From assembly GCA_029258725.1 (NCBI GenBank), contig JAPDKE010000013.1, forward strand, positions 1 through 64,000: 64,000 nt of DNA, in the 5' to 3' direction. This document shows, piece by piece, positions 37,018 through 56,056 of this stretch (the first letter of the stretch is position 1; each line of letters begins with the position of its first letter). The notes below the pieces were generated by a model, which was not told the origin of the DNA, did no database searches, and was given only the letters and a program-made list of their open reading frames with translations. Source of the DNA: a bacterium. Lineage in GTDB: Bacteria; Hydrothermota; UBA3072; JAPDKE01. Both the position numbers and the translations under genes were made by a program.

Positions 37018-38858
37018 TTCCCCTCAAGTTTCTTTACCTTTTCAAGTTTCTCCCTTGCCCTCTCAAGATTTTTGCGTGCCTTCTCAAAGGCAGGGTCTAT
37101 CTCCAGGACCTTCTCCCAGTATGCAATCGCCTCCTCAAGCCTGTCCTTTGTGTATGCGTTTATCCCCTTCATGTAGAGTTCATAGACATCCACCTTTCTC
37201 TTCTTCTTTTTCACAAGCTGGAGATACTTCTTTGCCCTTGTGAGGGTTGAATCAAGCCTTAATGCAAATTCAAACTCTATTTCAGCCTCTCCATACTTTC
37301 CAGCCCGGTAAAGTTTCTCTCCCTCTGTAAGATGCTTCACTGCCTCTTTCCTTATCCTCTCCTGAATTTCTTTGAAGTCTTTTCTTGCCCTGACGTATGA
37401 GGGGAACTTATTTAAGAGGCTCTTCATTATCCCCTTTGCATCCACAGCCCTTCCCTCTTTTAGCAATTTTTCTATTCTCTTGAGTTCCCTATCTATTATG
37501 CTCTCTATCTTCTTCTTTGCCCTGGATATGTAACTCTGCAGTGTTTTATTGGTTGGGTCTATCTTGAGCCCTTTCCTCCATGAGGATATTGCCTTCTCAT
37601 AATCTCCTTTCTTATAATAATTCATCCCTTCCTCTATATACCTTCCCACCCTTCCCTCTTCCCTTCTCCTTTCAGCCATGGCACGGGTTGTGGCATCAAA
37701 CCATTTAAGAGCAAGGGGATTCTGAGGGTCAAGCCCCAGAGCCCTTGAGAATGCATCTATTGCATTGAAGTAATCACCTTTTTTGTAGTAATCAATCCCC
37801 TCGTTTATTATGCGATTCACCTTCCTTTCCTTAAGTATGCTCCTCACCTCTTCAAGTTTTCTCCTTGCCTCCTCATAATCCGGATCCCATATGAGAGCCA
37901 TGTCAAACGCCTTCTCAGACTCTTCAAGTCTTCCCTCCCTCATGTATTCCACCCCCATGGTATAGAATGACTCTGCTGTGAGTCTGGCCCTCTTTTCTAT
38001 CTCTCTCCTTACAATCTCCTTCTTCCTTTCCTCCTCAAGTTTTTTCCAGTATGGGGTAATAGAGAGGGTAAATATGTGGGTCAGACCGAGTGGACCATAA
38101 GGGACGAATGCATAATCTATTGATACTCCAAACTTTCTCACTCCCAGACCAAACCTGAATCCTCCGGTGGTTCCGCTGCTATATCCCCCCCTTATAAACA
38201 AAACATCCTTTATCTTCCCTTCAAGCCCTGCCTTTATCCTGAACCCATCCGGGAATTCAAATTCCAGGATACCCCTTACAAATTCATTCTCATATCCCCC
38301 TCCCATCCCTATCCTTACCGGGAGCGGTGTGCTTTCCTCTCTGAATCTCATGGGCAACCCCAGATTCTTGAGTGCGAGCCCTCCAAATACATTTTTATTT
38401 ATCCTTGAGGCAATCCCAATATCCAGGGCTCCGGATATGCCGGTATAGGTATCTATCTTCCCGTAGAGGAGTTTGAAACTTCCTCCCACTGAAAATTGCT
38501 TAAACCGGTATGCCCCACCAACATGGAAGGAGGAGAAGAGGGTGGAGAACAGGTAATCCGGTTCCGGGGTGGACTCTATCCGGTGCTCAAATCCCCCGGC
38601 ATATAATAACCTCATCCCGGCCCCGAGTGTGAAATTTGGAAAAACATAAGTAAACGATGCATCATCATATCTTGTTCCCTGAAGGTACTCCCTGTGGGAG
38701 AAGGAGAAGGAGGCAGAGCTGGAGAATGATAGAAAACCGGGGTTTGAGAATATAGACCTTGCCCCATAAAATGCAGAATGCATCCCACCTCCGAGGGCAA
38801 CCTCCTCTCCCCCGGTTTCAAGATTTACAAACAGAATTCCTGATAGAAGAAATATCAT
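37014..38858 (-). CDS. PorV/PorQ-like outer-membrane barrel fused to TPR repeats
   Basis: 614 residues. The N-terminal signal MIFLLSGILFVNLETGGEEV is followed by a PorV-type opening VALGGGMHSAFYGARSIFSN with PGFLSF and ~270 residues of barrel strands (FTLGAGMRLLYAGGF, FSVGGSFKLLYGKID, GVSIDYAFVPYGPLGLTHIF). From ~290 on come at least six TPR-like repeats rich in Lys/Glu (SFYTMGVEYMREGRLEESEK, GIDYYKKGDYFNAIDAFSRA, GMNYYKKGDYEKAISSWRKG, GINAYTKDRLEEAIAYWEKV). The TPR part should lie in the periplasm. The giant secreted protein upstream is a candidate substrate. ATGA overlaps on both sides. Confidence 0.8.
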   Translation of the reverse strand: MIFLLSGILFVNLETGGEEVALGGGMHSAFYGARSIFSNPGFLSFSSSASFSFSHREYLQGTRYDDASFTYVFPNFTLGAGMRLLYAGGFEHRIESTPEPDYLFSTLFSSFHVGGAYRFKQFSVGGSFKLLYGKIDTYTGISGALDIGIASRINKNVFGGLALKNLGLPMRFREESTPLPVRIGMGGGYENEFVRGILEFEFPDGFRIKAGLEGKIKDVLFIRGGYSSGTTGGFRFGLGVRKFGVSIDYAFVPYGPLGLTHIFTLSITPYWKKLEEERKKEIVRREIEKRARLTAESFYTMGVEYMREGRLEESEKAFDMALIWDPDYEEARRKLEEVRSILKERKVNRIINEGIDYYKKGDYFNAIDAFSRALGLDPQNPLALKWFDATTRAMAERRREEGRVGRYIEEGMNYYKKGDYEKAISSWRKGLKIDPTNKTLQSYISRAKKKIESIIDRELKRIEKLLKEGRAVDAKGIMKSLLNKFPSYVRARKDFKEIQERIRKEAVKHLTEGEKLYRAGKYGEAEIEFEFALRLDSTLTRAKKYLQLVKKKKRKVDVYELYMKGINAYTKDRLEEAIAYWEKVLEIDPAFEKARKNLERAREKLEKVKKLEGK

Positions 38859-41800
38859 TTCACCACCACCATCTTTTTTATCACCCTTGCCTTCTCTCCT
38901 GTTTCAAGTGATGTTGCCTCGAAGATGACGAAGTAGATGTCGGTTCCTGTCTTTTCTATATCCCATTCTATCTCTCCCCTCTTCCCACCGGGGAAATTCC
39001 TTTCCTCTCTTGCTATCATTCTTCCTTCAAGATCGTATACCTCAACTTTCACGGTTGCATTCTCGTTTATCCAGAAGGAGAAGAATGCATAATTTCTCCA
39101 TTTTGGAATTGGTGCAGGGTTGGGATATATCCAGACACTGTCTTCAGGAAGCAGAGTGAGGGCAGGATAGAGATAGAAGGTATCACATGATATTCCTTCA
39201 TTCATGAACCGGTCGTATCCCTTAAGGATGAGCTCGCATGGTCCGCGATAGAGTCCTGCTGTTCCTGCTTTTCCTTTTACCGTATCTCCTGGTTCAAGTG
39301 TCAGGGAGAAGGATGTATCCCTTGAGGTAATTTCACAGAAGACCGGGGTATCCGGAAAGAGAGGCTCATCCGGTATTGCAATGAATTCAACCTCCTCCCC
39401 TATGTATGCAGATTCAGGGAGGATTATGGTAAAGGAGGGTCCCTTTGTATCCTCCTCCATGACCATTACTCTCAGACTCTCAGGTCTGCTTTCATTTCCC
39501 TGGCTATCCTTTGCCCTTACAATCAAAACATATTCCCCGTATGACTCAAAGGAAAGGGTGTCTTCCGTTTTCCAGAGTGTATCCCCAATCTTTTCCACAA
39601 CCGATAACTCCCTTACCAATGTATCAATCCTTACCTCCCCTGATGAGAGGGCGTGGTTATCCCAGAGTTCTGTTCTCAATATTACATCTCCTCCTCCCCA
39701 GAGGGTCTCGGGAGTTACCTCTCCGGAGATAAATGGTTTTGTGGTATCCTGGGTAAAGAAGGAGAAATACATCGTTGTCTCCGTGGCATTTCCATAGAGG
39801 TCCTTTATACCGGATGCAAGGTATACGGTTACCGTTTCAAGTTCTGCAAAATCCTCATAGGGATTTATCTTGAGTGTGGAGTCTGTATCCTCGTAGGACA
39901 TCCAGAACTCATGGGTCCCGCTCTTTTTCCCTTCAACCATCACCTTATCGCTTGTTAAACTTGCAGGGTCTATTTTTTCATTGAATGTTACATAGATCCA
40001 GGTATTCAGGGGAACACCATCTTCCCCATCCGCAGGGCTGGTATACGCAATCTCCGGAGGGAAGGTATCCACATATTCTGATACCCAGACCGTGATAGAA
40101 TCTATGGGGCCAAAGTTCCCTGCCGTATCCCTCCCCTGGAAATAGATTCTGTGTTCCTCCCCTGCCTTCCATTGAGACATATCAAATGTATCCACCACGT
40201 CCTCTTTTATTGAATCAAACACTCCATCCACCGGGGAGAGTGGGATTGCAATCTTCATAGAGTCCACATAGTAGAATGCAGCGCTTATTATTGAGTTTCC
40301 CCTTCCAGAGTCCGAGATGGTTGCATAAACAATAAGGTCCTTTGTCCCTTCAGGAGGATACACCGGACTCGTTCCCATGTTAACCACCTCAGGTCCTCTG
40401 GAGTCCTTTATAAACACCCTCAGAATTCCACTTGACCCCTTTGTTCTGTCCCCTGGTTCTCCAAAGTCAAAGTCATTATCGTATGCATATACCTCATACA
40501 CAAAATCCGTCCCGGCATTCTGTTTTGGTATTCTGTAATCGGTTATGAATGTATCTCCCGAAAGCCTGCTCATGGTGTATTCATTTGCATCCATCTCTAT
40601 CTCCCCATCGTTATCCCATAAGAGGTAAACCCCCTGTCCCTGAGAGCCGGTTTCGTCATCGTATACCCCTGATGGATCTGTAATTACTGCTGATATGTAA
40701 AAAGAGGAGGTATCAGGGACCGTATCCGGGGAGAACCCTGAAAATTCAGGGGGGAGGGTGTCATCATCCGGGGTAACGGAGAGGATAATCGAGTCAAAAT
40801 CTCCCCAGTTTCCGGATAAGTCCAGTCCATGCGCGTATATAGAGTGGTCTCCCAGGGAGAGTGTGGTTCCATCCAGATACACATAACTTGTTTCTACATT
40901 CTCATCAAATGCTCCATCTTCAGGAAAGAGAGAAATTCCATCTCCATTTCCCTTTATTGTATCTATAAATATCTCTCCCCCTCCTATCCCGGAGGCAATA
41001 CTTGACGTATCCTCAAGCACAACCTCCACATATATCTTCCTTGCACCCTCGGTGGGATTGGGATATGCGTGAAGGGTATGAACCACAGGAGGTATTGTAT
41101 CCCTTGAAGATGCGGCCACAAACTGGAAAGAATAGGAGGATTCGAGACTGTTTCCTGCGGTATCCTGGAGCTGGGTGGATACACTCACATGCAATGTCTC
41201 ACCCGGGGAGAAGTCAGAGGATGGGTCCATGAGCACCTGATAGAGTGAGGTATCATAGGTCAGGGAGAATGTAAAAAGACCCGATGCAGTTCCGCTGAGC
41301 TCAAAGGCACTTTCCTTAATGGTGGATGTATCAAGTGGTTCTGAGAAGAATATGGAGATATTTGAGTTCAATGGAACATTTGTATCTCCATCCGCTGGCT
41401 TTGTCCCGGTTACATAAGGAGGTATTGTATCCGGAGCAGCCTTAACCTCCACAACGACAGACTCAAGCGTTCCCCAGTTACCATAACTATCCATTCCATG
41501 GAAATACAGGGTATGATAACTTCCCAGCTCCCATCCCGAGATATTTAAAGTATCTACGAACTCCTCCCGGTATGAATCGAAGAGACCATCTGCTGGATTC
41601 AATAAATTTCCTGTTGAGTCAGGACCTCTGACATCTATGAAATACTCTGCACCTGATATGGTTGAATTTCCAAGCCCTGAATCCGATACCACAAAGTATA
41701 TGTATAAGAGTGTTTCTCCAAAGGTTGGATTTGGTGTAACCGAGAGGGATTCTATCTCCGGGGCCCTGACATCCATCACAACTATTTTCATAAGAGGGCT

Positions 41801-44800
41801 CTCCCCTTTGCTTCTGTCCAGGGGATGGTATGTGTCAAAGTCGTTATCCCATGCATATACCCGGTACACAAAGTCCACCCCGGGGGATTGGGGAGGTATA
41901 GGGGATACCGTGTAGAAATAAGAGCCTGAACTGTCAAGCTGGACTTCATTTGCATCCATCTCTATTTCCCCATCGTTATCCCATAAGAGATATACGCCCT
42001 GGCCATCCGACCCGGTGTTATCATCATATACACCGGATATATCCTCTATTCTGCATCTTATATAGAAAGACAGAGTATCAGGGACGGTATCGGGTGAGAA
42101 TGAAAGGAAGTCCGGAGGGATTGTGTCGTCATCCTGGCTAACACTTACAATCACCGTATCAAATCCTCCCCAGTTCCCGGAGGCATCCAGGGCATGTATG
42201 TAGATGCTGTGAGTTTCTCCGGGTTTCCAGCTGAGTGGATATGTATCCAGGGTATCTATTATATCCTCGGATGGCTCATCAAAATACCCATCCTTTGCAG
42301 TCATGGAGATTCCCGTTCCATCAGCCCCTATTCCATCTATAAAGTATTCCGCCCCAGCAATGTTTGAATTCCCGCTATCCACATCGGATGCGTATGCGGT
42401 TATTACAACAAAGTTTACAGGCTCACATGGATTTGGCGTTGCATTTGCAGAGGAGACGGTTGGTGGAGAGGTATCCTTTGCTTTTCCAGTAACAAATGAA
42501 AACTCATATATGCGGTGCATCCTGTTTCCGGCCTCATCCTCCACAAGTGTATCCACCTTTACATTGACGGTCTCATAATCTGCAAACTCTCCATCTATCT
42601 CAAGCGTTGCAGTAAAGGATGCCGTATCGTACGAAAGTGAGAAGGCATACGAACCGTTTATATCCCCGGTAACACTGAAGTATGAATCTATAATGGTGGA
42701 AGGATTCATTGCCTCCGAGAAGGTTATAAGAATGGAGGAGTTTATTGCAACATTTGTATCACCATCGGCTGGATTTGTTGAGGAAACCTGAGGATGTGTG
42801 GTATCAACCTTTGTTTCAGTTTCTGGAATACCGGTTGCCTCCTCTCTATTTCCCGCCCTGTCCTTTGCAAGAGCTTCAAATGCATAGGTATAACCATCTG
42901 CTCCATTATAGGTTGCGGATGTATCGGTGTAATCTGTTAGCCAGGTATTCCAGGACCCACCATTTATGCTTACCAGGACATCGTAGCTCACAACCCCTGA
43001 AAGATTGTCATTCCCTCTGCTCCAGGATACAGTGAAGGATAACCCGGTGGAATAAGAAGGGGAGGTCGCAGAGGCACCATAGGGTGGTGTAAAGTCAACG
43101 CCAAAGAACCTTCTTGCAGAAGATGATGTATTGTAACTTGAGTCCACTGCAAATACCCTCCAGGAATAGATTCCCTCCTCAAGTTTTTCTGTCGCCTCGG
43201 AGGTATATAAGGTATCCAGTAAATAGAGGGTGTTTGATGTATCTATCCTTAAAAGATAGCACAATAAGCCTGCTGCATCATCTGTTGAATTGCTCCAGTC
43301 AAAGTATACGCTTGAGTCATTCATCCATGCATTATCTGGTGGGGATAGGAGGGATGGTGCGGTTGGTGGAAGGGTGTCCTCCTGCAGGACATATACCCCT
43401 GTTCTTGTTCCTGCGAAGAGGAATCCATCCCTGAACAGGAGGTCAAATATTCCATCGGTATCAAGTTCTCCTCTGTTGAATCGAGTCCAGCTTTTCCCCC
43501 TGTTTATCGACTTCAATACACCAAACGGTGTCCCGGCATAGACTATCCTTCCATCATCCCTTTTTACCTCAACCGATAATACCCTGACCCCTGGCAGGAC
43601 CAGTTCCCATGTACCTCCGGCATCAAATGAGCGATATATTCCGGTATCTGTTGCTGCATAAACTATTTTTGGATCAGCCGGGTCTACTGCAATCTTCCTT
43701 ACAGGCCTGTTTACAGGGGCAGGGGTTGGAGAAAATACACCCGAACCATCCGTGCATATAAGGACTCCATTTTCTGCTCCATAGATGGTATCCGGGGAGG
43801 AGGTATACTCTATATCAGAGGGACTGCGGGTTGAGGTCTTAATCCATGTATTTCCACCATCGGTTGAGCGGTATGTTCCATCGGATAAGCCTGCAAGGAT
43901 GAAGGAATGGTTATGGGGATTTATTTTGCAGGATTTCACATTTCCGGAAAGCACCCGGGTCCAGCTCAATCCTCCATCGGAGGACATGAACAATCCATCT
44001 TCACACCCTGCAAATACCGTATCTCTGACCTCACTCGTTACCGAGTAGAACATGTAATTGTAAATTGAGGTTGTGTCCCATTCGTTTGCAGTATCCGAAG
44101 ATACATAAACCCCTCCTTTTATACCTGCATACACCTGAGGGAATGGAGCTACAATGGAGAATGTATAGGTTGGTTTAAGACCTGCACTGGACCTGTTCCA
44201 TCTCAAAAGGTCATGGATAAATACACCAACCCCCTTTGTCCCCGCAATAACGGAGTCTCCCAGGTATTCAAGTCCATATATTACCTTCCGAGAAAGTCCG
44301 GTATGGGTCCATGTGTTTCCGCCGTCGTCGGTAAAGAAGACACCGGAATCTGTTCCTGCAAATGCTACATCTTTATCAAGAGAGTCAAGCAGGAGAATAT
44401 AGACATTGCCCGTATCCAAGGATGTCTGATCCCATGTGTTTCCACCATCGGTGGACAGGTAGCATCCGTGGTATTCTGTTCCAGCGTATATGGTTGAAGG
44501 GTCGTCCCTCGATACCCTCACGCAAAATACTTTTATTCCAGGGAGGCCTGACAGACTCCATGAATTTCCAGAGTTTGTGCTCTTGAATATTCCAGAATCT
44601 GTCCCGGCATACATCCATAAAGAGGTTACCGGGTCTATATCTATTGAATAAACCTCCCTCTCACCGAGAGAGAGATAGGACCATATATTTCCATTGTTTG
44701 ATTTCCAGACCCCTGAGTCTGTCCCGGCATAGTAAACAGAAGCGGAAAGTTTGAAGATGATATCGTACACATTCTTGTTATCTATCCCCGCAAAATCCCA

Positions 44801-45067
44801 GCTGATTCCTCCATCATAGGATATGAACACCCCTCTCTCTGTTCCTGCAAGGACCGTATCCACTCCAAATGGGTGTGCAAACACCGAGAACACATTGTAG
44901 AATTTTAATCCAGAACCTATCCAGGACCTTCCCTTATTGATGCTCTTATAAACACCACCGGATGTTCCTGTATATATTATACTATCCTTTTGGGAGAAAT
45001 CATAAATTATTCCTCCCTCCGGACCTCCTGAACTCCAGGAATAGTAAAGTGACAGCAATAAGAGCAT
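38855..45067 (-). CDS. Giant secreted protein: BNR/sortilin-like propeller, Fn3, Ig/Big_5 repeats, T9SS-type C-terminal domain
   Basis: 2070 residues. Signal peptide MLLLLSLYYSW. Residues ~20-590 contain over a dozen propeller motifs of the type GTDSGVFKSTNSGNSW, each with an Asp-box-like turn. Residues ~600-770 hold Fn3-like domains (YFDWSNSTDDAAGLLCYLLR; FTVSWSRGNDNLSGVVSYDV). Then come two tandem ~455-residue units of one Big_5 domain (TNPADGDTNVAINSSILITF, FSEAMNPSTI) plus Ig-like modules, and a third Big_5 (TSPADGEDGVPLNTWIYVTF). The last ~90 residues are a sorting-type domain (FFSFWINENATVKVEVYDLE, GTDIYFVIFEATS, KKMVVVK). It is probably surface-exposed and adhesive or sensory. It heads the partner-switching operon. 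Confidence 0.85.
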   Translation of the reverse strand: MLLLLSLYYSWSSGGPEGGIIYDFSQKDSIIYTGTSGGVYKSINKGRSWIGSGLKFYNVFSVFAHPFGVDTVLAGTERGVFISYDGGISWDFAGIDNKNVYDIIFKLSASVYYAGTDSGVWKSNNGNIWSYLSLGEREVYSIDIDPVTSLWMYAGTDSGIFKSTNSGNSWSLSGLPGIKVFCVRVSRDDPSTIYAGTEYHGCYLSTDGGNTWDQTSLDTGNVYILLLDSLDKDVAFAGTDSGVFFTDDGGNTWTHTGLSRKVIYGLEYLGDSVIAGTKGVGVFIHDLLRWNRSSAGLKPTYTFSIVAPFPQVYAGIKGGVYVSSDTANEWDTTSIYNYMFYSVTSEVRDTVFAGCEDGLFMSSDGGLSWTRVLSGNVKSCKINPHNHSFILAGLSDGTYRSTDGGNTWIKTSTRSPSDIEYTSSPDTIYGAENGVLICTDGSGVFSPTPAPVNRPVRKIAVDPADPKIVYAATDTGIYRSFDAGGTWELVLPGVRVLSVEVKRDDGRIVYAGTPFGVLKSINRGKSWTRFNRGELDTDGIFDLLFRDGFLFAGTRTGVYVLQEDTLPPTAPSLLSPPDNAWMNDSSVYFDWSNSTDDAAGLLCYLLRIDTSNTLYLLDTLYTSEATEKLEEGIYSWRVFAVDSSYNTSSSARRFFGVDFTPPYGASATSPSYSTGLSFTVSWSRGNDNLSGVVSYDVLVSINGGSWNTWLTDYTDTSATYNGADGYTYAFEALAKDRAGNREEATGIPETETKVDTTHPQVSSTNPADGDTNVAINSSILITFSEAMNPSTIIDSYFSVTGDINGSYAFSLSYDTASFTATLEIDGEFADYETVNVKVDTLVEDEAGNRMHRIYEFSFVTGKAKDTSPPTVSSANATPNPCEPVNFVVITAYASDVDSGNSNIAGAEYFIDGIGADGTGISMTAKDGYFDEPSEDIIDTLDTYPLSWKPGETHSIYIHALDASGNWGGFDTVIVSVSQDDDTIPPDFLSFSPDTVPDTLSFYIRCRIEDISGVYDDNTGSDGQGVYLLWDNDGEIEMDANEVQLDSSGSYFYTVSPIPPQSPGVDFVYRVYAWDNDFDTYHPLDRSKGESPLMKIVVMDVRAPEIESLSVTPNPTFGETLLYIYFVVSDSGLGNSTISGAEYFIDVRGPDSTGNLLNPADGLFDSYREEFVDTLNISGWELGSYHTLYFHGMDSYGNWGTLESVVVEVKAAPDTIPPYVTGTKPADGDTNVPLNSNISIFFSEPLDTSTIKESAFELSGTASGLFTFSLTYDTSLYQVLMDPSSDFSPGETLHVSVSTQLQDTAGNSLESSYSFQFVAASSRDTIPPVVHTLHAYPNPTEGARKIYVEVVLEDTSSIASGIGGGEIFIDTIKGNGDGISLFPEDGAFDENVETSYVYLDGTTLSLGDHSIYAHGLDLSGNWGDFDSIILSVTPDDDTLPPEFSGFSPDTVPDTSSFYISAVITDPSGVYDDETGSQGQGVYLLWDNDGEIEMDANEYTMSRLSGDTFITDYRIPKQNAGTDFVYEVYAYDNDFDFGEPGDRTKGSSGILRVFIKDSRGPEVVNMGTSPVYPPEGTKDLIVYATISDSGRGNSIISAAFYYVDSMKIAIPLSPVDGVFDSIKEDVVDTFDMSQWKAGEEHRIYFQGRDTAGNFGPIDSITVWVSEYVDTFPPEIAYTSPADGEDGVPLNTWIYVTFNEKIDPASLTSDKVMVEGKKSGTHEFWMSYEDTDSTLKINPYEDFAELETVTVYLASGIKDLYGNATETTMYFSFFTQDTTKPFISGEVTPETLWGGGDVILRTELWDNHALSSGEVRIDTLVRELSVVEKIGDTLWKTEDTLSFESYGEYVLIVRAKDSQGNESRPESLRVMVMEEDTKGPSFTIILPESAYIGEEVEFIAIPDEPLFPDTPVFCEITSRDTSFSLTLEPGDTVKGKAGTAGLYRGPCELILKGYDRFMNEGISCDTFYLYPALTLLPEDSVWIYPNPAPIPKWRNYAFFSFWINENATVKVEVYDLEGRMIAREERNFPGGKRGEIEWDIEKTGTDIYFVIFEATSLETGEKARVIKKMVVVK
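40581..41990 (-). repeat. Internal tandem repeat in the giant secreted protein gene
   Basis: 45-base stretches at 40581-40625 and 41946-41990 differ at two positions and are 1365 bases (455 codons) apart. At protein level both encode GQGVYLLWDNDGEIEMDANE. The surrounding Ig and Big_5 modules repeat in the same order at lower identity, so the unit was duplicated once and this segment was kept or re-homogenised. Confidence 0.75.
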
Positions 45068-50901: not shown

Positions 50902-53900
50902 TTCATCCCCCTCTTTATGAATTCCTTGAGTTCCTGGATGGAGAAGGGCTTCTTGAGGGTTGGTCTCCGGGTCCTTTCCAGGAACGCCTTTGTTTCAGCA
51001 GATACAACATCTCCTGTGAGGAAGACTATTCTTCTCGTGTACTCCGGATACCTCTGAAGTATTAAGTCGTAAAATTCTATTCCGCTTATTCCGGGCATCT
51101 TTATGTCACACAGAATGAGGTCGTATTTGTCTTTGTCAAGCAGGAGCATTCCCTCACCCACATCTCCTGCTGTTGATACCTGGCATCCGAGTTTTTCAAG
51201 TATCATCTTAAGAGTCATTCTTATTCCTTCTTCGTCGTCTATCACCAGTATTTTCCTGCCGGAGAGCGCAACATCCTCCATCCTTCCCTTTTTCTCCTTC
51301 ACCTCCTCCCTCATGAGTGGAATGGAGACCGTGAATTTTGTTCCCTTTCCAGGGATGGAATGCACCTTTATCTTCCCATTATGGTCCTTTACTATCTTGT
51401 AAACTATAGAAAGTCCAAGTCCCGTTCCCTTTCCAACGGGTTTTGTTGTGAAGAAGGGATCAAATATGCGGTCCATGATGAAGCGGGGAATACCAGGTCC
51501 ATTGTCCTCCACCTCCAGGATACCGCAGTTCTTCTCTGGATAGGTTCTTATCCATACCTTTCCTGACGGTCTCCCATCCATGACTATCGCCTCCATTGCA
51601 TTGTTTACCAGGTTAATGAGAAGCTGTTCCAGTTGTGTTACATCTCCTTTTACCCGGACAGGCTCAGGATGAGTTTCAAGTATGAGTGCCACATTGTTGT
51701 TCTTAAATTCGTATCTTCTCAATTCGTAAACAGTATTGGCTATCTCGTTGAGGTCAACACTTGAAAGCTCTGTTGACTTTGGATAGGCAAACTGAAGAAG
51801 ATTTGTAACTATTTTTTTACTCCGTTTTGCCGCCTCGTATATCTTTTCCAGGATGTCCTTAAGACGGGGAGGAAGTTCCTCCTGAAGCAAATACTCACTC
51901 ATTCCCATGATGGTGGTTAATGGGTTGTTTAACTCATGAGTGACACTTGCTGCCATGCTTGCAAGTGTTGATAGTTTCTCCGCCTTCAGTAATTCCTTCT
52001 TCATTGCCACTTCCTCGGTTATATCCCTGAGAACCACGATGGCGGACTCCTCCTCAGGTACCGGATATCCGAGAATTCGGTAGGTTTTGCCATTTTCCAG
52101 TTCTATTTCACGGTCAATGGATATTCCGGTGCGGAATACATTCTCCGCATAGGAGAGTATTTTTTCTTTTGGTATTTCTTCCAGTACTTTTTTTCCTTTT
52201 GAGTTCATGAAGAGGAAGTCACCATTGGTGGAGACATGAAAGAGTGCATCCTCAAGGTGTTCAAGTATGGAGGCAAGCTTTCTTCTTTCCCTTTCTATTA
52301 TTCCATGAAGCTTTTCAATGGAGTAGGCTGCGTGGGAAACAATGGTGCGAAAGGTGAGGATTTCCCTTTCACTGAATGCATGAGGATGGGTGGAACCAAG
52401 GGCAACTATACCTATCAGTTTTTTCTCAGTCGCTATGGGAAGATAGAAGAACGAGCGGATAGGGATTTTCTTTCTTATATCGGAGACAAACTCAGGAGAA
52501 AATCCCATGTTGAGTTCCTGTTCGGTTACATCCCTTCCCATGCTCTCCTTCACTGCCTTTTTCAGGAGGGAGATGAAGTCCTTCTGAGCGGATAGAGGGA
52601 TTCTTGTATTGTGCTTCACCATAACCTCTATCTTTCCTTCCATGTCAAGAATACATGCCGCAACCTCGTAATTGAAAAGCAACCTGAGTGAGCCGAGCAG
52701 GAAACTCGCAAGGTCACGATAATGGAGGGTATATCCTATTTCTCTTGTGATGTTGTAAAGCACTTCCAGGTAATATGTCTTCTCCTTTACCATCCGGTCC
52801 AGGTCCTCTCCAAATTTCTGTTCCTTCCTCAGAAGCACGAGGTGGTAAAAAAGCAAGGAAAGGTAGGGAAGAAGTGATAAAATAAAGTGCGTATCTTCCT
52901 GATTAAATGGCGTTTTTTTACCGATGGAAAGGACCCCTATGAGTTCATTCTCTATAAGGAGTGGAAGATGCAGATAGTATTTTCCCTTCGCATATGAAGT
53001 TCCGGTGTGTCTCGTGTTTATGACATTTCCCACCTCCTTTTCCCCAACCTCTCTCAGAAACTTTTCCTTCCTCATGCCACTTGATACGACAAAGTGCATT
53101 TTCTCTTTTGTTCCTCCCAGGTAAAGGACGACAGCATCCACCCCCAGGACGTCCTTTATCTTTGTTACTATCTTTTTCAGGGTCTTCTTTACATCCGGTA
53201 CCCCCTTTTCTTCAAGGAAGGAGAGGAACCGGAAGACACTGATTATCTGGAATAAAATGTCCCTTGCCCTTTCTTTTCTATAATCCCTGCTTCTGTCCAC
53301 TATTATGAAAAGATACCCGTCCTTCTCCTTCGTTCCTATCACATCCACCCATACACCTGGTTTGAGATGTACAAAATTGAGGACCGCCCTTCCACTTTTT
53401 TCTATGGTCTCAAGAAACTCCCTTGCCCTGGGATACAGGGCAGAGTCTAAGGCTTCTCTCGCAACCCTGGGATGAGGGACCAGGGAAAAAGACTGTGCAA
53501 ACTCGTTCATGTAAACTATTCTTAAATCCTTATCCAGTTTCACCACCCCGACCTTTGGTTTCCTGACCCTTATCTCTTTTCCTCTGGTCCTGACAAGCTC
53601 TATCTCCTCGAGAGAAAGGACACCAACCACTTTATTTCTCTTCACCACAACAGCGTAATTTGTTTCTTTTTCTTCAAGCACTTTTATAACCCTATCCACA
53701 GACTCCGAGGGAGGAAACACGGGGACAGGTGATGGTGGAAGTATCTCCCCAAGAGATTTTCCTTCAAGAGAAACGTTAAAAGCAGGATAGACAGAATACT
53801 CCTTCTTCCCCACAACAAGCCAGCGGGGCATACGTTTCCTTATTTCCTTCTTCACCCCCTCCACATCCTCCTCCCATCCCACATGAAGGAAAGACCTGTC

Positions 53901-53927
53901 AGCAAATACCTCCGCCCTTAGCTTCAA
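50898..53927 (-). CDS. Multi-domain hybrid histidine kinase (CBS, PAS, GAF, HisKA, HATPase, REC)
   Basis: 1009 residues, no transmembrane helix. Approximate order: a CBS-like motif (~65-115, VIKVLEEKETNYAVVVKRNK), PAS (~120-225), two GAF domains (~240-390 and ~405-570), PAS (~575-650, ILEHLEDALFHVSTNGDFLF), HisKA with the phospho-His (~665-735, SMAASVTHELNNPLTTIMGM), HATPase (~770-880, QLLINLVNNAMEAIVMDGRP; ILEVEDNGPGIPRF; GKGTGLGLSIVYKIV) and a C-terminal REC (~890-1009, ILVIDDEEGIRMTLKMILEK; DLILCDIKMPGISGIEFYD). TTG start after AAAGGGGGAAGC. It probably integrates cytoplasmic signals for the HD-GYP and NtrC-type regulators encoded downstream. Confidence 0.92.
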   Translation of the reverse strand: MKLRAEVFADRSFLHVGWEEDVEGVKKEIRKRMPRWLVVGKKEYSVYPAFNVSLEGKSLGEILPPSPVPVFPPSESVDRVIKVLEEKETNYAVVVKRNKVVGVLSLEEIELVRTRGKEIRVRKPKVGVVKLDKDLRIVYMNEFAQSFSLVPHPRVAREALDSALYPRAREFLETIEKSGRAVLNFVHLKPGVWVDVIGTKEKDGYLFIIVDRSRDYRKERARDILFQIISVFRFLSFLEEKGVPDVKKTLKKIVTKIKDVLGVDAVVLYLGGTKEKMHFVVSSGMRKEKFLREVGEKEVGNVINTRHTGTSYAKGKYYLHLPLLIENELIGVLSIGKKTPFNQEDTHFILSLLPYLSLLFYHLVLLRKEQKFGEDLDRMVKEKTYYLEVLYNITREIGYTLHYRDLASFLLGSLRLLFNYEVAACILDMEGKIEVMVKHNTRIPLSAQKDFISLLKKAVKESMGRDVTEQELNMGFSPEFVSDIRKKIPIRSFFYLPIATEKKLIGIVALGSTHPHAFSEREILTFRTIVSHAAYSIEKLHGIIERERRKLASILEHLEDALFHVSTNGDFLFMNSKGKKVLEEIPKEKILSYAENVFRTGISIDREIELENGKTYRILGYPVPEEESAIVVLRDITEEVAMKKELLKAEKLSTLASMAASVTHELNNPLTTIMGMSEYLLQEELPPRLKDILEKIYEAAKRSKKIVTNLLQFAYPKSTELSSVDLNEIANTVYELRRYEFKNNNVALILETHPEPVRVKGDVTQLEQLLINLVNNAMEAIVMDGRPSGKVWIRTYPEKNCGILEVEDNGPGIPRFIMDRIFDPFFTTKPVGKGTGLGLSIVYKIVKDHNGKIKVHSIPGKGTKFTVSIPLMREEVKEKKGRMEDVALSGRKILVIDDEEGIRMTLKMILEKLGCQVSTAGDVGEGMLLLDKDKYDLILCDIKMPGISGIEFYDLILQRYPEYTRRIVFLTGDVVSAETKAFLERTRRPTLKKPFSIQELKEFIKRGMK

Positions 53928-53950
53928 GCTTCCCCCTTTTTAAAAATGAT

Positions 53951-53967
53951 ATACAAAAAATTTGCCA
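53951..53967 (-). promoter_or_regulatory. Putative sigma54 (-24/-12) promoter of the hybrid kinase operon
   Basis: Minus strand TGGCAA-N5-TTGTA: GG at 53966-53965 and GT at 54-53 (53954-53953), exactly ten bases between, matching the TGGCAC-N5-TTGCA consensus except GT for GC. The predicted start near 53942 leaves ~15 bases to the TTG start at 53927. Confidence 0.5.
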
Positions 53968-53994
53968 GTTATAAGTCCTTAATATCAAATAATA

Positions 53995-54014
53995 TTTACA
54001 CCTTCTGGTGTAAA
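53995..54014. promoter_or_regulatory. Palindromic operator / candidate enhancer site between divergent kinase operons
   Basis: TTTACACC-N4-GGTGTAAA, a perfect 8-base inverted repeat with a 4-base centre. A further half-site-like TTTTACAC lies at 54039-54046. The centre is ~62 bases upstream of the predicted minus start and ~107 upstream of the plus start, a usual distance for a sigma54 enhancer. The half-site GGTGTAAAA recurs in the -10 region of the PEGA kinase promoter (32406-32416, minus strand). Confidence 0.55.
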
Positions 54015-54085
54015 AAATTCACACATGAGTTAAGAAATTTTTACACAGTGGATTTCGCATGTGGGTAATTATCAATGGGTTGGAC

Positions 54086-54101
54086 TGGCACTGTATTTGT
54101 C
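54086..54101 (+). promoter_or_regulatory. Putative sigma54 (-24/-12) promoter of the exported protein / second kinase operon
   Basis: TGGCAC (54086-54091)-N5-TTGTC (54097-54101); GG and GT are ten bases apart as required. The start would be near 54112, directly before AAGGGAGGTGAT and the ATG at 54127. As in the divergent promoter, GT replaces GC at -12. Confidence 0.55.
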
Positions 54102-54126
54102 CCTTTTAAGAAGGGAGGTGATAAAA

Positions 54127-54552
54127 ATGCTCTGGATGCTCATAGGCTTGCTTGTGGTTGGTGAAAAAGAAGTGACAGGTGCGATAAAGGTGTGCCTGAG
54201 GATACCCGGAAAGAAGGTGGAAAGGGAAGAGTCCTTTTACGGGGACGACCTTCCACCTTCACTCGAGGTGCTCAGGGTCCTGAGGGAGGGAAAGGATATA
54301 AGGGTTCTTGTTGCTCCTCAGGACACCGTAAGGGTTTTTGCATGGATTGAGATAAGAAGAGGAAAGGAAAGGATACTTGGACAAAAAAAGGAGATAGAGA
54401 TAAGGAAAAACACATGGATAAGGTTCAGGCTTGGGAGAAGGAGACTTAAACCAGGAGATTTTGTGCTTCTGAGAATCGTTGGAGAGGAGTTTGAAAAAAA
54501 TATAGGTTTTGTCTACCAGGGGGGATGGGATGACGCTCTCACTTGGAAGTAA
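54127..54552 (+). CDS. Small exported protein encoded with a histidine kinase, unknown function
   Basis: 141 residues; start at 54127 behind AAGGGAGGTGATAAA (a frame extending to 54061 overlaps the promoter). MLWMLIGLLVVGEKEVTGA is a signal peptide or N-terminal anchor. The rest is a small all-beta domain (VTGAIKVCLRIPGKKV, DIRVLVAPQDTVRVFAWIEI, KNTWIRFRLGRRRLKPGDFV) with a single cysteine. It looks like an Ig-type extracytoplasmic domain. The 23-base overlap with the kinase gene suggests a sensory partner (inference). Confidence 0.6.
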   Translation: MLWMLIGLLVVGEKEVTGAIKVCLRIPGKKVEREESFYGDDLPPSLEVLRVLREGKDIRVLVAPQDTVRVFAWIEIRRGKERILGQKKEIEIRKNTWIRFRLGRRRLKPGDFVLLRIVGEEFEKNIGFVYQGGWDDALTWK

Positions 54553-56056
54553 AAAGATAGAACTAAAGGAACATGAGATATTCATGCTATTCCGGTGGCT
54601 GCTCGTGCTTCTCATTCTCTTCATGATAGGATACAGCAAGGTGGGTTTGACAAGACTCCACTGGGGATATGTGCTCATCCTTATTTACTTTGGAATAAAC
54701 ATATCTCTCAGGGTTTTTCTTCCGAAACTTTACGGTAATGAAGCCTTTATCTTTGCACTTGCTCTCATGGATATAATATTTGTATCTGTTGCAATTTACA
54801 TAGCAGAGGTATTTCGTTCAGAATTGTACCTCTTATATTTTCTCACAATCCTCATGCCCTCCCTCGGGGGGAGCCTCCGCTCCTCCATCCCGGCCGCCAT
54901 TGTGTCAAGCACCCTTTACATCTGGCTCATGAGCAAACATGATGGAATTTCGTGGACCGAACCGGGAAGTCTTCTCAAGATACCATTTTTCTTCCTTGTT
55001 GCCTTCTTCACCGGGTTCTGGGCGGACACGGTGAGAAGAAGGGCAAAGGAAAGAGAGGTGGAGGCGGAGAGGGTCCTTTCTAACCTTTCATCAGGGGTGG
55101 TGGTTGTGGAGAGGGACGGGAGAATAAAATTCATAAACGATGTTGCCAGGGAAATATTAGGACTGCATCTCCCCCCCGGGACCCTCTCCGACCTCCCCTC
55201 TCCCTTTAAAAAAATCCTGGAGGATGGATTTTCAGGAAAAATATATCAGAGACACGAGTTTGATTTTGAAGGAAAAAAGATTGGACTTTCAACATCTCTC
55301 ATTGCCATGGATGACGAAATAAAGGGAGTTATTGCCATATTCAAGGACATAACGGAGATGGAGCGCATGAAACGGGAAATGGAAAGGGCAAAAAGACTTG
55401 GACTGCTTGGGGAGGTTGCACTCTGGATTGCACACGAGATAAGGAACCCCCTTGCCGTGGTTCAGGGGATGGCGCAGCTCATAGAGATGGTTGATACATG
55501 TGGGGATGTAAAGAAGTATGCGGCAGAGATTGTGAAGAATGCAAGGAGGATAGAGGGAATTATTGAGGATATTCTTGAATTCCACAGGGATGATGTAATG
55601 AAGAAGGAGGAATTTAACCTGCTTGAACTCGCTCAGGAGGTTGGAGAGGACATGCGGATAAAGTTCGGGGACAGGGTAAAAGTGAGGGGTGAGGATGTTG
55701 AGGTTATGGGGGATAGGGAAAAAATAAGAAGGGTTATTGTAAATCTTGCAACCAACGCAATAGAGGCATCACCTGATGATGAGGAGGTGAAGATTGAGGT
55801 TGGCAGGAAGGGGGATTTTGCAGAGATAAAGGTTGTGGACAGAGGGGATGGAATTCCTGAGGAGATAAAGCAGCATATTTTTGAGCCATTTTTCACAACA
55901 AAATCCCATGGAAGTGGTCTCGGGTTACCCATCGTCCACAGGATTGTGGAAAAGCATGGTGGAAGTATAACCTTTGAAAGTTCCCCGGGTGAGGGGACAA
56001 CCTTTTATGTAAAACTTCCAATAAAAGGAGGTAAAGATGAAGGTACTCATAGTTGA
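54530..56056 (+). CDS. Membrane sensor histidine kinase (multi-TM, PAS, HisKA, HATPase)
   Basis: 508 residues; ATG at 54530 after GGGGGATGG. N-terminal membrane region of about five helices (~20-165: LFRWLLVLLILFMIGYSKV, YVLILIYFGINISLRVFL, IPFFFLVAFFTGFWADTV), PAS (~185-285, VLSNLSSGVVVVERDGRIKF), HisKA with phospho-His in LWIAHEIRNPLAVVQGMAQL (~305-370), HATPase (~390-508: VIVNLATNAIEASPDDEEVK; KVVDRGDGIPEEIKQHIF; GSGLGLPIVHRIVEKHGG). NtrB/AtoS-like layout. Its cognate may be the single-domain regulator just downstream or the NtrC-type protein of the divergent operon. Confidence 0.92.
   Translation: MTLSLGSKKIELKEHEIFMLFRWLLVLLILFMIGYSKVGLTRLHWGYVLILIYFGINISLRVFLPKLYGNEAFIFALALMDIIFVSVAIYIAEVFRSELYLLYFLTILMPSLGGSLRSSIPAAIVSSTLYIWLMSKHDGISWTEPGSLLKIPFFFLVAFFTGFWADTVRRRAKEREVEAERVLSNLSSGVVVVERDGRIKFINDVAREILGLHLPPGTLSDLPSPFKKILEDGFSGKIYQRHEFDFEGKKIGLSTSLIAMDDEIKGVIAIFKDITEMERMKREMERAKRLGLLGEVALWIAHEIRNPLAVVQGMAQLIEMVDTCGDVKKYAAEIVKNARRIEGIIEDILEFHRDDVMKKEEFNLLELAQEVGEDMRIKFGDRVKVRGEDVEVMGDREKIRRVIVNLATNAIEASPDDEEVKIEVGRKGDFAEIKVVDRGDGIPEEIKQHIFEPFFTTKSHGSGLGLPIVHRIVEKHGGSITFESSPGEGTTFYVKLPIKGGKDEGTHS

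Follow-up and report, generated by a model that had tools for sequence, protein, structure and literature searches.

The 199-bp gap (53928-54126) between two divergent histidine-kinase operons contains, as read from the sequence, two predicted sigma54 promoters, both facing outward. It lies within the window, the 64,000-nucleotide stretch of DNA analysed here. With moderate confidence, we propose that these promoters serve a minus-strand operon for a hybrid kinase, an HD-domain regulator and an NtrC-type activator, and a plus-strand operon for a small protein, a kinase and a receiver, and that both would be driven by the locus's own activator from shared sites, with feedback. The components supported by the sequence itself are the promoter elements, their spacing, the presence of rpoN, the gene order and the integrity of the activator motifs.

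Table 1. Position and basis of the features of the locus (window coordinates)
Feature	Position	Strand	Basis
NtrC-type activator: receiver, sigma54-interaction AAA+, GAFTGA, Fis-type HTH; 455 aa	48536..49903	-	gene calls, Pfam, motif reading
Response regulator with HD (HD_5) output domain; 333 aa	49900..50901	-	gene calls, Pfam
Hybrid histidine kinase (CBS, GAF, HisKA, HATPase, receiver); 1009 aa	50898..53927	-	gene calls, Pfam
Ribosome-binding site, GGGGG run before TTG 53927	53932..53937	-	read directly
Predicted transcription start, minus operon	53941	-	12 nt past -12 base at 53953
-24/-12 element, minus operon: TGGCAAATTTTTTGTA = TGGCAA-N5-TTGTA	53952..53967	-	read directly
Perfect 8+8 palindrome TTTACACC-TTCT-GGTGTAAA, putative activator site	53995..54014	.	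read directly; putative function
Second inverted repeat GTGTAAAAAATTC / GAAATTTTTACAC, overlapping the palindrome	54008..54046	.	pair I3, 92% complementary; putative function
-24/-12 element, plus operon: TGGCACTGTATTTGTC = TGGCAC-N5-TTGTC	54086..54101	+	read directly
Predicted transcription start, plus operon	54112	+	12 nt past -12 base at 54100
Ribosome-binding site GGGAGGTGAT before ATG 54127	54113..54122	+	read directly
141-aa protein, first plus-operon gene	54127..54552	+	gene calls; no Pfam match
Membrane histidine kinase (weak PilS-like + DUF4118 membrane region, PAS, HisKA, HATPase); 508 aa	54530..56056	+	gene calls, Pfam
Receiver-only response regulator; 124 aa	56037..56411	+	gene calls, Pfam

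Genes and promoter elements of the two operons

A first-pass annotation of this DNA had placed an NtrC-type activator with an intact GAFTGA at the end of the minus operon. This proved correct: the genes overlap by 4 nt at each junction, the activator is the third of three, and it carries a Walker A motif (GESGTGKE) and GAFTGA at residue 217, with a Sigma54_activat match of 241.6 bits. Response_reg and HTH_8 matches give it the receiver and the C-terminal Fis-type HTH of the family. Elsewhere in the window, a repeat-rich 2070-aa protein, probably secreted, is encoded on the minus strand (38855-45067); its C-terminus presumably resembles a type IX secretion sorting domain.

Direct reading recovered both -24/-12 elements and the palindrome at the positions proposed in the annotation. 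Each element has GG at -24 and GT at -12 with exactly ten bases between them (GG-N10-GT, reading of 53500-54600), again as proposed. Starts had been put about 15 bases ahead of the start codons, and the starts that we predict give leaders of 14 nt on the minus strand (TTG 53927) and 15 nt on the plus strand (ATG 54127). The start codons lie 26 nt (minus) and 27 nt (plus) from the -12 base, against a range of 26-42 nt in 16 other promoters of the genome; the plus-site distance is that of L119 and L123. No sigma70-type promoter was matched in the gap (0.8 matches in shuffles). One point against our reading is that TTGT is followed in the plus element by CCC, without the A present there in 15 of the 16 promoters.

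The genome, 95% complete with 2.11 Mb in 53 contigs, encodes one RpoN, with a PF04552 match of 175.6 bits covering the DNA-binding domain and an RpoN box, ARRTVAKYR; the absence of rpoN, which would have spoken against the annotation, is thus not the case. Sixteen proteins match PF00158 above cut-off, 11 of them strongly (>200 bits). The five weaker ones need not be sigma54 activators, because the family also matched all 14 control genomes, only 4 of which matched the RpoN family. Five of the ten other strong activator genes have a predicted sigma54 promoter less than 1 kb away (contigs C3, C7, C15, C22, C26).

As a yardstick, the generic consensus TGGCAC-N5-TTGC with up to two mismatches was rejected, giving 41 matches in the window versus 35.4 ± 5.7 in shuffles. 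Since it was uninformative, the motif was learned from the genome's own promoters. The pattern TGGYA-N6-TTGY followed by GGAGG within 5-35 nt has 24 matches in the genome (11 for the reversed-pattern control). One, L103, is the plus site of the locus and was excluded from training; seven (L101, L102, L108, L113, L116, L118, L122) were discarded because they had no start codon, lay inside a reading frame or were atypical sites. The other 16 are plausibly positioned and have a start codon following the ribosome-binding site; they formed the training set. Four of them (L107, L117, L119, L120), as well as L124, overlap some reading frame of at least 100 aa and were retained because a ribosome-binding site and start codon come directly after.

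Several observations from these genome searches stand apart from the locus. Exact TGGCACG-N4-TTGC occurs 6 times in the genome, once (L067/L114) 42 nt ahead of the start codon of a gene that we take, from its sequence, to be type IV pilin-like. The sigma54-type site TGGCACTTTTTTTGT (L105; C2:26402-26437, minus strand) lies 28 nt before the start of a ribosomal protein L34-like gene, which from its sequence we assume to be L34 and which would be an unusual sigma54 target. Four copies (L076, L078, L081, L092) were found of a reading frame beginning MPRPLRVDYPGALYHVIFKGN, presumably of the REP-associated (Y1) transposase family.

With a 15-position core matrix built from the 16 other promoters, the plus site ranked first (19.55 bits) and the minus site second (14.08 bits) among 127,970 window positions; leave-one-out gave 12.4-22.1 bits, a range that includes both scores. 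Adding five flanking positions put the minus site first (17.2 bits) and moved the plus site to rank 15 because of its CCC; at 6.8 bits it falls below the leave-one-out minimum (range 14.6-27.4 bits) and would be rejected on this 20-position matrix alone. The ranking depends partly on the form of the motif, because both sites fit TGGYA-N6-TTGY, the pattern used to find the training set. Given the ranks on the genome's own matrix and start-codon distances within the genome's range, both sites are very probably real sigma54 promoters; every feature is present in the minus site, and the plus site has its odd CCC.

The palindrome and the identity of the activator

Centred at -107 from the plus start and -63 from the minus start, both predicted, the palindrome is of a kind that arises by chance at some rate: an 8+8 inverted repeat occurred in 153 of 2000 Markov sequences of the same composition, and in 21 of 2000 with at least three G/C per arm. 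A second inverted repeat, missed in the first-pass annotation, is centred at 54027, halfway between the predicted starts. With its right arm comes another TTTACAC half-site, the third (54040-54046), which lies 45 nt away from the first. From this geometry, we infer two dimer sites, one strong and the other degenerate, arranged symmetrically so that each start has them at about -63 and -107.

Palindromes of at least 7+7 also lie upstream of 5 of the 16 other sigma54 promoters (Markov mean 0.94; 0/200 simulations reach 5), compared with 28 of 399 window tiles (Fisher p=0.005). Three of the five are centred at -84 to -86, and every sequence is different, as expected with several activators. At the lowest threshold, 6 dyads were counted at -70 to -90 of sigma54 promoters versus 1.9 expected. 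By an equal criterion, 11 of the 16 promoters have no palindrome, which also speaks against our reading, as do the short distance of the palindrome from the minus start and, from the searches described next, its single genomic copy, the lack of sigma54-linked matches in the phylum and the lack of an orthologous locus.

In its own genome, the palindrome has a single copy at up to 2 mismatches, the next best having 3. Across the phylum, matches were found in 7 of 147 genomes (1/147 for the reversed-pattern control), and none of these 7 other matches lies at a sigma54 promoter or an activator gene. The annotation had suggested looking in the genome for further -24/-12 elements preceded by this palindrome; such a search found none. 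With one genomic copy and no sigma54-linked site in 147 genomes, the palindrome was rejected as a conserved regulon motif. Recurrence at other targets or conservation in relatives, which would support a shared enhancer and is not strictly required of one, was thus not found. In two related species of the phylum (G028, G022), the palindrome, as TTACACC-N4-GGTGTAA, is found ahead of one conserved gene (L095 and L096), without a sigma54 site; it is probably another regulator's operator.

An orthologue search over 60 genomes, including its own and with one genome of the genus among the relatives, found no orthologous locus for footprinting: beyond the query, kinase matches were domain-level, about 27-42% identical among the matches listed. 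The N-terminal part of the kinase, scanned against genome contigs, gave no match. The DNA-binding domain of the activator gave two distant matches, which differ in their recognition helices and lack a palindrome of this kind in their vicinity.

The proposed mechanism is as follows. Sigma54 polymerase would wait in a closed complex on each promoter, and a phosphorylated NtrC-family activator would bind the TTTACAC half-sites between them, that is, the strong palindrome and a weaker site around 54040-54058. The bound activator would then loop to the polymerase and open the promoter. Its most likely identity is the product of the third minus-operon gene; the locus would then work as a self-reinforcing switch with two co-expressed kinases. 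The transcription starts, the enhancer role of the palindrome, the identity of the activator and the feedback are the elements that we infer. That the palindrome is a shared enhancer of the cognate activator, with positive feedback, is plausible; for the loop to close, this activator would have to bind there. If the activator gene were strictly sigma54-dependent, its initial expression would have to come from some other source.

This start-up problem would disappear if both promoters were sigma54-dependent and one of the ten other strong activators bound the palindrome, the locus then being a downstream target with no direct feedback. We regard this as rather unlikely, though it is the alternative to which we give most weight. 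Candidates exist in the ten further strong PF00158 proteins, and nothing found ties the palindrome to the locus's own HTH, the two nearest DNA-binding domains differing in recognition helix and having no palindrome nearby. Local control is favoured, in contrast, by the frequent position of predicted sigma54 promoters within 1 kb of an activator gene on the five contigs named above, and the absence of further copies of the palindrome in the genome is as expected of a local regulator.

It is less likely still that the palindrome is a repressor operator or the site of an unrelated factor, with no role in sigma54 activation. Palindromes of such a kind fit many transcription-factor families, and the two exact matches L095 and L096 precede an unrelated conserved gene; against this, at -107 from the plus start it falls where enhancers usually lie, and the genome's sigma54 promoters are preceded by palindromes more often than expected. 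Quite improbable is a sigma54-dependent minus promoter alone, with a chance TGGCAC...TTGT before the strong plus-strand ribosome-binding site and an unrecognised promoter type for the plus operon: the flanked-matrix score and the CCC would fit it, but the plus site is the window's best on the core motif, stands at a start-codon distance shared with two other promoters and has no sigma70-like match in the gap.

T at position -12 and the RpoN helix

The first-pass annotation had treated GT at -12 as a deviation from GC. Most promoters of this genome have it: of the 16 others, 11 show T and 5 show C. A genome search with TGGCA-N6-TTGN-SD, allowing any base at -12, gave 20 matches, all with T or C and none with A or G. 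T at -12 is therefore expected to be functional in this genome, with no defect. The earlier interpretation as a whole thus stands for the outward sigma54 promoters, rpoN, the start spacing and the activator-ending operon, and falls for GT as a deviation. The 16 promoters also divide into two subclasses by the base after TGGCAY, which is G in 5/5 promoters with C at -12, and A in 7/11 or G in 3/11 of those with T.

We compared TGGCAY-N5-TTGT-N8-32-GGAGG with its TTGC form in 147 genomes of the phylum. The own genome has 10 TTGT matches (control 0) and 7 TTGC (control 2), versus 48 (control 25) and 228 (control 21) in the phylum outside the class (Fisher p = 0.0003); after correction for the controls, roughly one site in ten outside the class has T. 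Nine other class members have 6 TTGT and 2 TTGC. The shift to T is well supported for the own genome only, because the class-member matches are few and many look like chance in a looser search, where A and G also appear at -12.

GT at -12 has precedents. In the available part of a table of Salmonella intergenic sigma54 sites, it is found at pspA, hydN and pspG, which are listed as sigma54-bound and read TGGCA...TGT then A (PMC3844500). In that source GT is a small minority, whereas it is the majority form here. Our search of the open-access literature, through listings and passages, met no lineage in which GT predominates at -12; class-wise logos are mentioned in the accessible text of PMC12316311.

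We aligned 40 RpoN proteins (its own, 9 from the class and 30 others from the phylum). At E. coli positions 377, 378 and 382, the own RpoN has D, I and H, and it keeps S379 and R383; D377 and H382 were found in it alone among the 40. According to excerpts of the structural work, H377, S379 and R383 read the conserved GC in cryo-EM (PMC9770992), and E378 and R383 cross-link to promoter DNA (PMC5505868). A Cereibacter study, seen in part, offers a precedent for joint divergence of RpoN and promoter: position -11 tells two RpoN proteins apart, a C-to-T change in the -12 GC is suggested to lower expression, and a strain carrying this single change resembles one in which the downstream gene is deleted (PMC11999139).

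A single RpoN residue accounting for T at -12 was rejected as a simple rule, as other families do not follow it. With N382, family f8 has mostly C (1 T, 19 C in G018, G024 and G029 together; RpoN aligned for G018 and G029 only) and family f21 is mixed (13 T, 29 C in four genomes together; RpoN aligned for G042 only). The f3 class members have S382 yet T only (5 T, 0 C; some perhaps chance).

A causal link between the RpoN substitutions and T at -12 is suggested by one genome. Tentatively, and as a possibility that falls short of probable, the -12 element of this lineage may have been retuned, GT(A) displacing GC as the preferred form together with the changes D377, I378 and H382 in the RpoN helix by which the element is read. 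Promoters that would be weak in model bacteria would then be standard here, and the pair in the window typical. Searches with a consensus of GC at -12 would score most of the genome's sigma54 promoters as defective. If T dominates at -12 with matching oddities in the RpoN helix, the lineage would offer a natural experiment on the reading of -12 by sigma54; so far this contact is described, in the text available, from structures of model proteins (PMC9770992).

Comparison with known divergent systems

By analogy, the layout would belong to a known kind, divergent sigma54 promoters under one activator, as in zraP/zraSR and orp1/orp2. In enterobacteria, the hycA and hypA promoters presumably diverge too, with fhlA ending the hyp operon. 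Excerpts of PMC3844500 list these as neighbouring sigma54 promoters, and they are under FhlA; FhlA is controlled by ligand binding, versus phosphorylation for the NtrC-type activator here.

In zraP/zraSR of Salmonella and E. coli, the sigma54 promoters are likewise divergent, one of them serving a kinase and NtrC-type activator operon, and ZraR controls both (PMC4987338, in the part available). Unlike there, kinases are present here in both operons, GT stands at -12, the activator is the third gene, with a hybrid kinase and an HD regulator ahead of it, and its binding is putative.

The orp1/orp2 promoters of Desulfovibrio vulgaris, also divergent and sigma54-dependent, are co-activated by DVU2106 from palindromic sites between the promoter regions, at -88 and -131 according to excerpts of PMC3897727; the palindrome here lies nearer the minus start, at -63. 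The DVU2106 gene is transcribed from a sigma70 promoter under repression by its own product (same source). This is the opposite of the positive feedback proposed here and shows that such feedback should not be taken for granted. The divergent layout is an already known way of locking two operons together, and the new part of this locus and its genome is the T-majority -12 consensus.
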